This document shows positions 25,720-31,403 of a stretch of 64,000 bases of DNA, in pieces. How positions within the stretch are numbered: the stretch's first letter is position 1; each line of letters opens with the position of its first letter. Source of the DNA: Prochlorococcus marinus XMU1402 (GTDB lineage Bacteria; Cyanobacteriota; Cyanobacteriia; PCC-6307; Cyanobiaceae); NCBI RefSeq assembly GCF_017696205.1, contig NZ_JAAORD010000001.1:868001-932000 (forward strand). The letters are read 5' to 3'. The notes under the pieces are model-generated. The model saw only the letters and a list, made by a program, of their open reading frames with translations. It made no database searches and was not told the DNA's origin. The position numbers were made by a program, and so were the translations under genes.

Positions 25720-26304
25720 ATGAGCTTAAGAGTTGGCCAAGAAGCACCAGACTTTAGTGCTACAGCAGTATATGATCAAGAGTTTAAGGAGATTACACTT
25801 TCAGGTCTAAGAGGTAAATGGGTTGTTTTATTCTTTTACCCACTAGATTTTACATTTGTATGTCCAACTGAAATTACTGCATTTAGTGATAGATACCAAG
25901 ATTTCTCGGCACTTAATACGGAAATACTTGGAGTATCAGTTGATAGTAAACACTGTCATTTGGCTTGGATACAAACCCCAAGAAATGAAGGTGGAATAGG
26001 TGATATTAACTATCCGTTAGTTTCTGATTTAAAAAGAGAAATTTGCCAAGCGTACAATGTTCTTAATGATGATGGAGAGGCAGATAGAGGTTTATTCCTA
26101 ATCAATCCCGAAGGAGTAGTTATGCATACGACTGTTAACAAAGCACCAGTAGGCAGAAATGTTGATGAAACACTAAGGATTCTCCAAGGTTATCAATACG
26201 TTGCAGCAAACCCAGATGAAGTATGTCCAGCAAACTGGACTCCAGGGGAGAAAACAATGTTAGAGGACCCCAAAGGTAGTAAGGAATATTTTTCTGCGCT
26301 ATAG
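25720..26304 (+). CDS. Typical 2-Cys peroxiredoxin
   Basis: A 194-residue Prx1-type thiol peroxidase. The peroxidatic cysteine is Cys48 in FTFVCPTEI and the resolving cysteine is Cys169 in [12 protein letters not shown] at about 91-94 and YF near the C-terminus (KEYFSAL) are both present, features that in this family go with sensitivity to overoxidation. It reduces peroxides, likely using thioredoxin. It has its own promoter upstream and a strong hairpin terminator about 70 bases after the stop. ATG 25720. Confidence 0.95.
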
Positions 26305-26319
26305 AAGGGTTAGAAACAT

Positions 26320-27072
26320 TCAAGTAAGTATCGAGTAGTAAATAATTATAAAAATATAAAAAATAAACATATTCAAAAAGGGGATAACATCCCCTTTTTG
26401 AGGTTTAGGGACCATCCAATCGCTTAAATTAGTTTTATATGATAGAAAAGACCACGAAAAAAAAGAAATTTCTATGGCGACTAAGATAAATAGATTAATC
26501 AAATTTAAGTCATTTAAACCAAAATATCTATAAATATGAAACTGATCATCAACGCTAATATTATTAATTTGAAAATGCCAAAGATAAAGAGAAATCAAAA
26601 TAAAATTTACCAATATTATTTTTTTTAATAAAAACCTAGATTTCTTAAAAATTAATGAAATAGAAATTAAAAAAATGAAAAGACTTAACTGTAGAATTTC
26701 CAGTTTTGGTACATTAATTCCTCCAAGAAATAAATTAAATATAAGATCAAAATTTATATATAAATAATCAGCTATAAAGTAAGAGAGAAATATTAAATTT
26801 ATTGCTACTAAGAATAATAATTTTTTTCCTTTGATTATATTTTTAGTATGAAGTTTATTCTTGTTAAAATTATAGTTTGTATAGTTTTTTAAAGAGTTTA
26901 AACACACCAAAGATGGACATATAATGCCGCTCAAATAGTAAAGGATTGAATAAAAGGAAATATCTTTTATATTTAATGAATACAAATTAAACCATTGTTT
27001 TTGTACAAATGGAAGAATAAGTAAAAATGAAAATGTAACTAATAATTTCGTTGTATTGTTTTTAATTATCAA
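26320..27072 (-). CDS. Multi-pass membrane protein, unknown
   Basis: A 250-residue, very hydrophobic protein with about six to seven predicted membrane helices (for example LLVTFSFLLILPFVQ, FYSILYYLSGIICPS, LFLVAINLIFLSYFIADY, LFILVAIEISFFSWSFL, MFIFYIFIIIYYSIL). A loop near the end reads SDWMVPKPQKGDVIPF. No family recognised. It follows the ftsH-like gene by 38 bases and is probably in its operon. Its last 27 codons contain a perfect palindrome that also serves as the peroxiredoxin terminator. Confidence 0.7.
   Translation of the reverse strand: MIIKNNTTKLLVTFSFLLILPFVQKQWFNLYSLNIKDISFYSILYYLSGIICPSLVCLNSLKNYTNYNFNKNKLHTKNIIKGKKLLFLVAINLIFLSYFIADYLYINFDLIFNLFLGGINVPKLEILQLSLFIFLISISLIFKKSRFLLKKIILVNFILISLYLWHFQINNISVDDQFHIYRYFGLNDLNLINLFILVAIEISFFSWSFLSYKTNLSDWMVPKPQKGDVIPFLNMFIFYIFIIIYYSILT
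26374..26400 (+). terminator. Perfect 12-bp hairpin with T run, terminator of peroxiredoxin
   Basis: CAAAAAGGGGAT-AAC-ATCCCCTTTTTG forms a perfect 12-pair stem with a 3-base loop and is a canonical intrinsic terminator on both strands. It ends the peroxiredoxin message but lies inside the coding end of the opposite membrane-protein gene. Confidence 0.8.
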
Positions 27073-27110: not shown

Positions 27111-28865
27111 TCAAACTTTCAACAATTTATAAGTTGTTAATTTAAAAACTTTTTTATCTATAGTTTCTTTATCTAAAAGTATATCAACTAATTTATCAAG
27201 TAAAGCTCTATTATTTTTCAATATTTTTATTGAATTATTTAATGAAATTTTAGAAATATTTATGATTTCATTATCTATTCTAGAACTAGTATTTTCTGCG
27301 ATGAGGGGCTTTCTTCTAAATAATCCATCTCCTAAAAACATTTCATTATTGCCAGAATCCATTGAAATTGGACCAATAATTGAAAATCCATATTTCGTAA
27401 CCATTTCCCTTACAATATTTGTCGCATAAGAGATATCATTTAAGGAGCATTGTGTAATTTCACTTTCACCAAAAACTATAGTTTCTGCTGCTCTTCCAGC
27501 TAGAGCAATTTCAATCTTTGAAAATAATAATTTTTTTGAAATCAAGCCACTAGAAATTACATCTTCGTCAGGGGAAATTTTTGTATATCCTCCTAAAGAT
27601 CCTGATCTAGGTAAAATCGTAATCTTATCAACTGATTCAATTCCATTTTTCACAGCAGATACAATCGCTCTGCCTACTTCGTTATAAGCAATAATTTTTT
27701 TCATATTAGGAGAAGTTATTAATGAACTTCTCAGGCCAATGGTAATTTTATCAAGAGCATTTTCTATATGAAGATCACTGATTATTTTAGATTCATCTCT
27801 TGCACAGTGAATAGCACTCTCATTCATTAAATTTGCAAGATCTGCTCCCGAAAATCCAACTGTTCTAGAAGCCCAATATCCTAAGTCAACTTCGCTTGAA
27901 AGTGGTTTGGAAAGTGAGTGAACTGAAAGAATTTTTTTTCTTCCGTCTAAATCTGGAAGCATTACTTCAATTTTTCTATCAAATCTACCTGGTCTTAATA
28001 ATGCTGCATCCAAAATATCTGGTCTATTTGTTGCAGCTAAAACAATAATCCCGGAATTATCAGCAAAACCATCTAATTCAGTTAAAAGTTGATTGAGAGT
28101 TTGTTCTCTCTCATCATTACCACCTCCAATACCAGACCCTCTTTGCCTACCAATAGAATCAATTTCATCGATAAAAATTATACAAGGAGATTTTTCCTTA
28201 GCCTTAGAGAATAGATCCCGCACACGACTTGCTCCAACACCAACAAAAAGTTCTACAAACTCTGATGCCGATATTGAGAGAAAAGGGACTCCTGATTCAC
28301 CGGCAATTGCTTTAGCCAATAATGTTTTACCCGTTCCTGGTGGACCAATTAAAAGAACTCCCTTAGGAACTTTTGCTCCAAGATTTTCAAATTTTTTTGG
28401 TTCTTTCAAGAAAGTTATTACTTCTTTTAATTCCTCAGCTGCTTCAGGAACACCAGCTACATCATCGAATCTCGTTTCTACATCATCAATAGTTACAAAT
28501 TTAGCTTGATTTTTAGAAAAACCAAAGGCTCTGGAAGCCAATTTCGATGTACTTCTCAAGATTAAGACTATAGCTAATATAAAAATCAGGAAAAGACTTG
28601 TTGAAGCGAACTTGTTAGCAGCTGAAGCATCTTTTCTACTGTTATTTATAGTGAGATCAACTTTATTTTCAGTAGCCTTTTCAATGATTAATTGATCGTT
28701 GTAAAGGATAGGAATTTTAATTTTATCGCCATTTTTATACAAAACATCAATTTCTCTCTGTCTCGGATAAAAAAATATTGATTCTATTTTTCCCGTCTCT
28801 ATATCCTTTAGAAGATCCGAATAACTTGATTTAGAATTTGAATATGAGAATTTTGATCTAAACAC
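27111..28865 (-). CDS. FtsH-like AAA+ protein with inactivated protease site
   Basis: A 584-residue FtsH homologue with GTG start at 28865; a stop three codons upstream excludes extension. One membrane helix is at about 87-104. The AAA module is intact: Walker A GPPGTGKT (174-181), Walker B with IDE at 232-234, and the second region of homology ([12 protein letters not shown]). The zinc motif HEXXH, which should read HEAGH, is NEVGR (395-399), so both histidine ligands are lost; the third ligand, Asp477, remains. The usual first N-terminal membrane helix is missing too. Normal FtsH degrades membrane proteins; this one probably keeps only ATP-driven remodelling, like plant FtsHi. Confidence 0.9.
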
Positions 28866-28996: not shown

Positions 28997-29167
28997 ATGG
29001 CTGTACCAAAGAAGAAAAAATCAAAGAGCAAAAGGAACCAAAGGCACGCTGTTTGGAAAGGGAAGGCAGCAATGGCAGCTCAAAAAGCTATATCTTTAGG
29101 TAAATCAGTTTTAACTGGGAAAGCTCAAGGATTTGTTTACCCTATTGAAGACGAAGAAGAAGAATAG
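28997..29167 (+). CDS. rpmF: 50S ribosomal protein L32
   Basis: A 56-residue L32 from ATG 28997. It begins [20 protein letters not shown] and has an acidic end (IEDEEEE). Cyanobacterial L32 lacks the four-Cys zinc ribbon, as here. It is divergent from the ftsH-like gene. Confidence 0.93.
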
Positions 29168-30420: not shown

Positions 30421-30768
30421 ATGAAATCATGGACATGCATAGAAAATTGTGGAGCTTGTTGTAAATTCGACTTGAACGAAAGAAGCGATTTGGCGGACAA
30501 ACTTAACAAAGAAGATATAGCTTTGATAAATTCGATGACCGCCAAAGACGGTTGGTGTAAAAACCTTGATAGAGATAATAAAAAATGCTTAATTTATGAA
30601 ACCAGGCCACATTTTTGCCGAGTAAATGAATTTTCGACTGCATTTAAAGAATATTTGAAATCTGGCGACAAATTTTTAATAGATTGCTGCAAACAACATA
30701 TTTCATCAAATTATGGATACCAAAGTAAAGAGATGAAAACTTTTAGAATTGCTGTTTCAGCAAAATGA
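30421..30768 (+). CDS. YkgJ-family cysteine-cluster protein
   Basis: A 115-residue protein with eight or so cysteines in the YkgJ pattern: CIENCGACCKFDL at residues 5-17, WCKNLDRDNKKCLIYE, HFCRVNEF and DCCKQH. These cysteines probably bind zinc or an iron-sulfur cluster. Function of the family is not firmly known. Its stop overlaps the ATG of the next gene by four bases (ATGA), tying it to the half-transporter pair. Confidence 0.83.
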   Translation: MKSWTCIENCGACCKFDLNERSDLADKLNKEDIALINSMTAKDGWCKNLDRDNKKCLIYETRPHFCRVNEFSTAFKEYLKSGDKFLIDCCKQHISSNYGYQSKEMKTFRIAVSAK

Positions 30769-31091
30769 ATAGTAAATTAGAAGAAAAAGAAAAAATTATA
30801 GAAAAAAGTTTTTTTTCTATATTTATAACGACTTTTACAACAATCTTTATTGCTGAACTGGGCGATAAAACTCAGATAGCCACATTAATGCTTTCTGCTG
30901 AATCGGGCAAGCCAATAATTGTTTTTCTTGGAAGTTCTCTTGCATTAATAAGCTCTAGTATAGTAGGAGTTCTTATTGGTAAATGGGTATCAAAAAAAAT
31001 ATCTCCTAGCAAATTTGCTTTATTTACTGGAGCATTAATGATATTGATAAGTATTTTTTTAGCTTATGAAACATTCAAAAATTATTTATAA
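30765..31091 (+). CDS. UPF0016/GDT1 half-transporter, first copy
   Basis: A 108-residue single-repeat member of the GDT1/TMEM165/Mnx family of Mn/Ca transporters. It has three membrane helices and the signature ELGDKTQIATLML at about residue 28. Full-size members have two such repeats in one chain; here the second half is a separate gene directly following, so the pair probably works as a heterodimer. The polar N-terminus (NSKLEEKEKIIEKS) is longer than in the partner. Overlaps the YkgJ gene by four bases. Confidence 0.85.
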   Translation: MNSKLEEKEKIIEKSFFSIFITTFTTIFIAELGDKTQIATLMLSAESGKPIIVFLGSSLALISSSIVGVLIGKWVSKKISPSKFALFTGALMILISIFLAYETFKNYL

Positions 31092-31403
31092 ATGATTTTA
31101 AGTTTATTACTATCAACATTTCTAACCGTTTTCATAGCCGAATTAGGTGACAAAACTCAACTTGCCACTTTAACTATAAGCGGAACTTCAAATAAACCAT
31201 TAGCTGTTTTTCTAGGATCTTCTTCAGCACTTGTGTTTGCAAGTTTACTAGGAGCTTTAACAGGCGGTTCTATTTCAAGTTTTTTACCAGAAGTAGTTCT
31301 TAAGTCAATAGCCTCTATTACATTTTTTATAATTGGCATAAGGCTTTTTATCAACTCTTTCACCATCGAAAAAGAAATAAAAGATCAGAAAGAAAATAAT
31401 TAG
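31092..31403 (+). CDS. UPF0016/GDT1 half-transporter, second copy
   Basis: A 103-residue partner with the same topology and the signature ELGDKTQLATLTI at about residue 17. The ATG follows the previous stop with no gap. A short Glu/Lys-rich tail ends the protein. Cation specificity (Mn2+ most likely, Ca2+ possible) is inferred from the family; two adjacent half-genes with opposite insertion would rebuild the full carrier. Confidence 0.85.
   Translation: MILSLLLSTFLTVFIAELGDKTQLATLTISGTSNKPLAVFLGSSSALVFASLLGALTGGSISSFLPEVVLKSIASITFFIIGIRLFINSFTIEKEIKDQKENN

Follow-up and report, generated by a model that had tools for sequence, protein, structure and literature searches.

A protease-dead FtsH4 with a conserved ATPase module in Prochlorococcus-like genomes

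In Synechocystis, FtsH1 and FtsH2 are type-B proteins that pair with the type-A protein FtsH3 (PMC9020784), and the FtsH1/3 complex is essential (PMC11287208). During PSII repair, the ATPase of the type-B subunit is required, while its protease activity is reported to be dispensable (PMC9020784); here and below, literature statements refer to excerpts of the papers cited. Arabidopsis has FtsHi proteins with the motifs TEVGV, NEAAM, REAAV, and WAAGR (PMC11266112), and for P. marinus strain SS120 a single FtsHi is on record (Mishra 2019, PMC6460958; Mishra and Funk 2021, PMC8197885). Prochlorococcus FtsH4 has been described as related to Synechocystis FtsH1, a match less obvious, in the view of that study, than the other pairings (PMC6300248), and a 2024 paper treats it as the homologue of Slr1390 with "presumably parallel functions" (PMC11262661). 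In strain MED4, isoforms 1, 2, and 3 were described as making up a balanced FtsH pool (PMC6300248), and the FtsH4 transcript seems to be low. In the literature, all Prochlorococcus FtsH proteins are credited with protease functions by homology; the FtsH4 sequence contradicts this in at least 92 genomes.

We analyzed a window of 64,000 nucleotides from Prochlorococcus marinus XMU1402, a 1.70-Mb genome with four FtsH genes. The gene at 27111-28865 (minus strand, GTG start, 584 aa) passed the cut-off of the FtsH family model (TIGR01241, 648.9 bits, cut-off 600) and matched the AAA Pfam model. Primer fits identify it as Prochlorococcus FtsH4: the published MED4 primers for FtsH1, 2, and 3 best fit the three other FtsH genes, with 5 to 8 mismatches, and the FtsH4 reverse primer fits the window gene best (4 mismatches). 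The FtsH4 forward primer does not discriminate (8 mismatches in two genes, 9 in the others), but both FtsH4 primers match locus L122 exactly, at the published spacing of 203 bp (PMC6300248).

A reading of the window made from its letters alone (the sequence-only reading) had claimed that HExxH is replaced by NEVGR while the ATPase motifs are intact. The codons bear this out: residues 395-399 (27669-27683, minus strand) are encoded by AAC GAA GTA GGC AGA, and the AAA module on the same strand is complete, with Walker A (GPPGTGKT, residues 174-181, 28323-28346), Walker B (FIDE, residues 231-234, 28164-28175), the second region of homology (SRH), and an FVG pore loop (residues 207-209, 28239-28247). 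Whereas active M41 zinc peptidases combine HExxH with an Asp as third ligand, the window FtsH4 keeps only the latter, Asp477 (27435-27437, minus strand). The other three FtsH genes of this genome read HEVGH, HEAGH, and HEVGH, and FtsH1-3 likewise keep HExxH in all 18 cases from six further dead-clade genomes; the presumed type-A partner FtsH2 retains HEAGH in the window genome and in each of these six.

To place this loss, 120 orthologues were read from 400 genomes of the family, comprising the 63 genomes of the window's genus that had the gene and 57 others, chosen with a preference for small-genome genera; low-scoring alignment rows, mostly AAA-only matches, were left unused. Zinc ligands are lost in 92 of the 120 and HE[IV]GH is kept in 28 (18 HEIGH, 10 HEVGH), a ratio that does not represent a natural frequency since the 57 were so chosen. 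Within the genus (68 genomes searched), all 63 orthologues, each from a different genome, read NE[VAI]GR, so NEVGR is not a product of chance or error; the probability of a sequencing or assembly error, or of a mutation private to one strain, is practically nil. Conservation across strains, which the sequence-only reading had left to be checked, is thus established. The relatives found with HExxH all lie outside the dead clade, so the refuting observation named by the sequence-only reading, HEAGH in close relatives, did not turn up.

Dead motifs vary by genus, reading NExGR in g1; NEVGK and HEAGR in g39; NEAGK, NEIGR, HEIGK, YEIGR, NEVGR, NTIGR, and NEIGI in g11; HEIGK and HQIGK in g17; RESAR in g27; QQVGR and RNASK in g4; and QIIGK and QIIGR in g56. 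Across the 92 dead copies, the first His position holds Asn (69), Gln (12), His (8), Arg (2), or Tyr (1), and the second Arg (71), Lys (20), or Ile (1), making it basic in 91. Arg and Lys interchange freely there with the charge retained, save in two genomes of g11, where the residue is Ile (G190) or Thr (G178, in which the last ~210 codons of ftsH4 lie at a contig end and read NEIGT; this dead copy stands outside the 92). Glu396 is present in 76 of the 92 and is Ile in all 11 g56 genomes read. At position 477, Asp is found in 75, with Gln (6), Asn (4), Glu (4), and His (3) in the other 17, so the sequence-only claim that the third ligand is kept holds for the window gene and fails across the dead clade; the proposal that selection keeps Asp477 is weakened accordingly. 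No copy among the 92 has lost the Walker A Lys, the Walker B Asp-Glu, or the sensor Asn; the three SRH arginines are intact in 91, and the pore loop reads FVG or FIG in every copy. On these sequences, a standard zinc protease is ruled out for FtsH4 in at least 92 genomes. Two dead copies are strongly diverged (L226 from G003, with RNASK and a long branch of 1.49, and L225 from G190, with NEIGI), and their SRH is also changed, to RAGRFD[KR], possibly a further step of decay or specialization.

In a tree computed without the zinc columns, the 34 dead rows group as a single clade nested among 30 active rows (ultrafast bootstrap 94, SH-aLRT 94); this tree excludes eight rows of an earlier one, namely the three window paralogues, G003, and four sequences from outside the family. 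This topology places the death of the FtsH4 zinc site at a single point, the ancestor shared by the Prochlorococcus-like genomes with dead copies. At the second His position, the class of residue changes only twice, one change being from His to basic and the other from basic to Ile; the first His position changes at least seven times. The second His was probably lost before the first, because eight dead copies retain the first. The Arg or Lys in its place may offset nearby acidic groups formerly neutralized by zinc, a putative structural role.

Selection on the gene is uneven along its length. Among 31 sequences of the genus, median dN/dS was 0.045 for the AAA module, the lowest of the gene parts, 0.078 for the lumenal part, 0.121 for the membrane-linker part, and 0.115 for M41 (only pairs with dS between 0.05 and 2 entered the medians, here and for the stub discussed below). 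The sequence-only reading had named relaxed selection as the mark of a decaying gene; what we found was purifying selection, strongest on the ATPase. Whole-gene dN/dS was several times higher in ftsH4 (0.07-0.18) than in FtsH1-3 (0.016-0.032), indicating weaker constraint, though the comparison between genes is rough because dS differs by gene for one and the same strain pair (0.28 to 1.30, window genome versus G316). In that pair (L254-L256, L020), dS was 0.28-0.30 in ftsH4 and ftsH2 versus 1.1-1.3 in ftsH1 and ftsH3, a hint that ftsH1 and ftsH3 underwent recombination or allele exchange. Among columns with at least 95% conservation in active copies, 117 of 143 in AAA and 21 of 53 in M41 are still at least 90% conserved in dead ones; the M41 losses include both His and Gly473-Ala474 (of the 34 dead rows, 21% keep Gly473 and 9% keep Ala474). 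Because AAA columns stay conserved and M41 columns mostly do not, this pattern suggests a motor that was kept and a cutting site that was released rather than a decaying gene. Pooled between genera, median M41/AAA divergence was 2.12 for active and 2.90 for dead copies; within single genera, the ratios did not separate the two (active 2.0 to 4.5, dead 2.0 to 3.3).

The peptidase domain retains its fold, matching the M41 Pfam model over residues 384-574 (27144-27716, minus strand; 151.3 bits, cut-off 29.9). In a structure model built from 30 sequences (mean pLDDT 74.5), helix 386-407, which bears the dead motif, lies within blocks of mean pLDDT 73 to 90. Model residues 128-579 superpose on a solved FtsH (3kds_F) with Z 36.4 and rmsd 4.8 over 420 aligned residues, and the model also matches the m-AAA protease AFG3L2 (6nyy_E, Z 33.0) and a chain of the Ycf2-FtsHi motor complex (8xku_E, Z 30.5, rmsd 4.2, 444 aligned). 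As modeled, the fold of FtsH4 is that of FtsH, with only the zinc site gone.

The N-terminus departs from the family in a second respect. FtsH proteins have two N-terminal membrane helices, and the window FtsH4 has one, predicted at about residues 82-109 (28539-28622, minus strand) and equivalent to TM2 of other FtsH; TM1 is absent. As the sequence-only reading had it, an in-frame TAA lies three codons 5' of the GTG, and nothing hydrophobic precedes the helix in the structure model; GTG is the start in 53 of 53 loci whose N-terminus matched the motif searched. What did not stand is TM1 loss as a step of inactivation, which we rejected, because most active orthologues of the same family also lack TM1. 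These active relatives mostly start shortly 5' of an SYS motif or carry longer, non-hydrophobic leaders, and two active rows (L154, L220) have a hydrophobic stretch within a long upstream frame. In orthologues from other cyanobacterial families, the first helix is present, often with a signal-peptide-like end (ALAQ). By this distribution, loss of the first helix is older than loss of the zinc site. The region before the helix scores 24.5 bits against a cut-off of 25.5 for the FtsH_ext extracytoplasmic domain, and the model gives residues 11-70 a helix and strands, with block means of pLDDT at 72-85. Having no signal anchor, this FtsH_ext-like domain (28539-28865, ~residues 11-70) would either have to reach the far side of the membrane as an N-tail or remain on the inner side, a puzzle that holds equally for most active picocyanobacterial relatives.

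The locus itself is stable. The divergent neighbor of ftsH4 at 28997-29167 (plus strand), which we take from its sequence to be rpmF (ribosomal protein bL32), and the gene at 25720-26304 (plus strand), which we likewise take to be a peroxiredoxin, flank ftsH4 in the same order and orientation at each of the 29 dead loci examined and at most active loci. Overall, rpmF is the divergent neighbor in 49 of 50 loci checked (all but L042), and it sits beside FtsH in two of 27 loci from other cyanobacterial families (L286, L287). MrpL32 is a homologue of bL32. Its maturation is carried out by the mitochondrial m-AAA protease, an FtsH relative (PMC9020784), and the resemblance to the adjacency of rpmF and ftsH4 may be chance.

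These markers also bear on the genomes in which ftsH4 was missing. Five genomes of the genus have an assembly gap at the locus; four of them also lack matches to the neighboring genes, and in the fifth (G394) a contig starts ~0.65 kb from the gene. Among 16 further genomes with no listed ftsH4, the peroxiredoxin gave a strong match in G178, G073, and G026, always within ~2 kb of a contig start, and the other 13 had weak peroxiredoxin paralogues only. We reject true gene loss as far as the assemblies allow, the absences checked being cases of missing neighbors or contig ends. That contigs of the drafts G026, G073, G178, and G394 end at or within ~2 kb of the ftsH4 locus may itself be selection, since these were chosen for lacking a listed ftsH4. 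Elsewhere in the window, two adjacent membrane ORFs at 30765-31403 (108 and 103 aa, each with an FIAELGDKTQ motif) are presumably half-size relatives of the GDT1/UPF0016 transporter family.

Between ftsH4 and the peroxiredoxin sits a further gene, here called X, which in the window encodes a 250-aa membrane protein (26320-27072, minus strand). In most active marine genomes, X has 904-944 open codons or is still open at the end of the sequence covered, and the long X protein tested (L137) matches UPF0182 (PF03699) with 756.3 bits. In the dead clade, X has 251-276 open codons wherever at least 1.4 kb of downstream DNA was covered, except in genus g56, where it is absent from 11 of 11 genomes read (the survey omitted L007-L035, except L001, as well as L043-L115 and L178-L184). 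The window gene alone had no match to PF03699 up to E 10, but as a family the short X proteins align to the N-terminal third of the ~930-aa UPF0182 protein, residues 1-289 (hhalign probability 99.6, E 2.5e-23, columns 1-289 of 938). Singly, 21 of 23 short rows pass the inclusion threshold of the long profile (L118 and L119 fail); the window row scores 9.4 bits (E 0.00028 in a search of 23 sequences). Composition bias in these matches is large, as is usual for membrane proteins. The short X evolves fast (median dN/dS 0.354, median identity 60% across 24 sequences of the genus) and is therefore a weak candidate for an essential partner; judged by its sequence relationships, the gene at 26320-27072 is a fast-evolving relic. 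The suggestion that this membrane gene is co-conserved with ftsH4 is thus partly upheld, in that short X spans most dead lineages, and partly contradicted by its rapid evolution and its absence from g56.

Full-length UPF0182 follows the state of the zinc site. All 21 tested genomes whose FtsH4-type gene has HExxH gave a UPF0182 match (two lie outside the family, and a contig end truncates the match in G021); in the basal active group (G023, G092, G102, G134), UPF0182 lies ~2.9-3.4 kb 3' of ftsH4. None of the 22 dead-clade genomes tested gave a match, four of these being less than 82% complete and having a short ORF instead at their ftsH4 locus, nor did G026, whose ftsH4 is unreadable. The two losses fall on the same branch, which makes up 0.4% of the family tree length, or 1.0% once the dead crown is set aside; because the co-loss rests on this one branch, it is not independent statistical evidence. 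Literature searches on UPF0182 returned no functional study among the matches listed, and the match between zinc loss in FtsH4 and loss of full-length UPF0182 is a first lead to this family.

How might a dead FtsH4 work? In the FtsH tree, a cyanobacterial clade of 17 rows (100/100) contains picocyanobacterial FtsH4, apart from the adjacent clade that holds the window FtsH1; type names follow PMC6300248, the tree has no Synechocystis sequence, and the branch of the window row is long. By this placement and the published assignment (PMC6300248), FtsH4 is on the type-B side of FtsH. Prochlorococcus FtsH2 is a relative of Synechocystis FtsH3. Since FtsH4 is of type B and has lost the protease while keeping the ATPase, a mixed ring in which the type-A subunit does the cutting fits the data. 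We consider it most likely, with confidence a little above even, that FtsH4 lost its zinc site once, was kept as a working ATPase, and now forms the non-cutting half of a mixed hexamer with FtsH2. FtsH4 would assemble with the HEAGH-bearing FtsH2, as suggested by homology to Synechocystis FtsH1, grip and pull substrates, and complete the ATP sites of its neighbors, and cutting would be left to the FtsH2 sites alone. Ligand loss, the single dead clade, the intact and constrained ATPase motifs, and the intact paralogue sites were read from sequence, and from them we infer the ATPase activity, the assembly with FtsH2, the half-active ring, and the structural role of Arg/Lys. The missing TM1 counts against the mixed ring in that it makes the route of the N-terminal domain across the membrane a puzzle; so do the weaker constraint relative to FtsH1-3, the Ile and Thr exceptions to the basic residue, and the seemingly low FtsH4 transcript in MED4.

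The sequence-only reading had instead proposed a stand-alone membrane motor free of proteolysis, a homohexamer that would, like the Ycf2-FtsHi import motor, pull or refold membrane proteins uncut. The intact motor residues of the dead copies, the structural match to 8xku_E, and the private short membrane protein downstream in most of the lineage are consistent with such a motor, but bacterial FtsH fits the model as well or better (3kds_F), type-B relatives act as mixed rings (PMC9020784), and the membrane partner is dispensable, as the g56 genomes show. Given the type-B placement and a type-A partner that keeps HEAGH, we regard the homohexamer as unsupported and unlikely; a half-active mixed ring is simpler, the type-B members studied forming rings with a type-A partner. 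It is decidedly doubtful that ftsH4 is in slow decay with an ATPase that is harmless or marginally useful. Its dN/dS above that of FtsH1-3, the long branches into several dead genera, and the very diverged RNASK copy of G003 point that way, but the frame is open in 92 of 92 copies read, the absences checked reflect missing neighbors or contig ends, AAA dN/dS is low, and motor residues are invariant across genera at a mean AAA distance of 0.41. An active protease with an unusual metal site, built from Glu396, Asp477, and new ligands, would account for the persistence of these two residues in most dead copies and for an M41 domain mostly predicted with good confidence; with Arg or Lys as second ligand in 91 of 92, Gly473 and Ala474 rarely kept, and Ile for Glu396 throughout g56, it is highly improbable.

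More speculatively, FtsH4 and UPF0182 may once have been one functional unit in picocyanobacteria, with the large extracytoplasmic part of UPF0182 and the cutting site of FtsH4 lost in one linked step. FtsH4 would then have specialized entirely as an ATP-driven unfoldase or motor, docked in most lineages to the membrane stub, and Arg/Lys would hold the protease ring together in place of zinc, a scenario that we think quite unlikely.

Among published systems, a dead FtsH in SS120 is already in print; in the excerpts cited, the two reports (PMC6460958, PMC8197885) give its presence in one strain and do not give motif, gene, phylogeny, or neighborhood. This FtsHi is very probably the orthologue of the window FtsH4; the ftsH4 orthologue of G010 reads NEAGK. 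Loss across the lineage, the basic residue at the second His position, and the connection with UPF0182 were not found in print, as judged from titles and abstract openings among the matches listed.

FtsH4 emerges as a bacterial equivalent of the FtsHi proteins of plants: its sequence marks it as inactive, strains conserve it, and its AAA module is under purifying selection. Plant and algal FtsHi (FtsHi1-5, Ycf2-FtsHi motor) have likewise lost HExxH with ATPase motifs intact, and chains of the motor complexes (8xku, 8xks, 8xqw) match the FtsH4 model by fold; this is a likeness of motif and fold, and the Arabidopsis motifs given in the excerpt of PMC11266112 lack the near-fixed Arg/Lys of the FtsH4 clade. 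Synechocystis FtsH1 (slr1390), the type-B subunit of FtsH1/3, is on the same side of FtsH as FtsH4 and colinear with it across AAA and M41, and the rpmF neighbor of FtsH4 recurs at two loci of an outside family. FtsH4 differs in lacking the zinc ligands and, by an older step common to most active picocyanobacterial relatives, the first helix. The closest functional parallel is an engineered protease-dead type-B FtsH of Arabidopsis (Zhang 2010, in PMC9020784), in which the protease is off, the ATPase is on, and the complex works. That protein was made in the laboratory, whereas the dead FtsH4 of Prochlorococcus arose once naturally and then spread through its lineage. One of the most abundant photosynthetic lineages would thus naturally repeat the Arabidopsis experiment, a type-B FtsH with ATPase on and protease off, and the active and dead orthologues at one locus allow the role of a non-cutting subunit to be tested.
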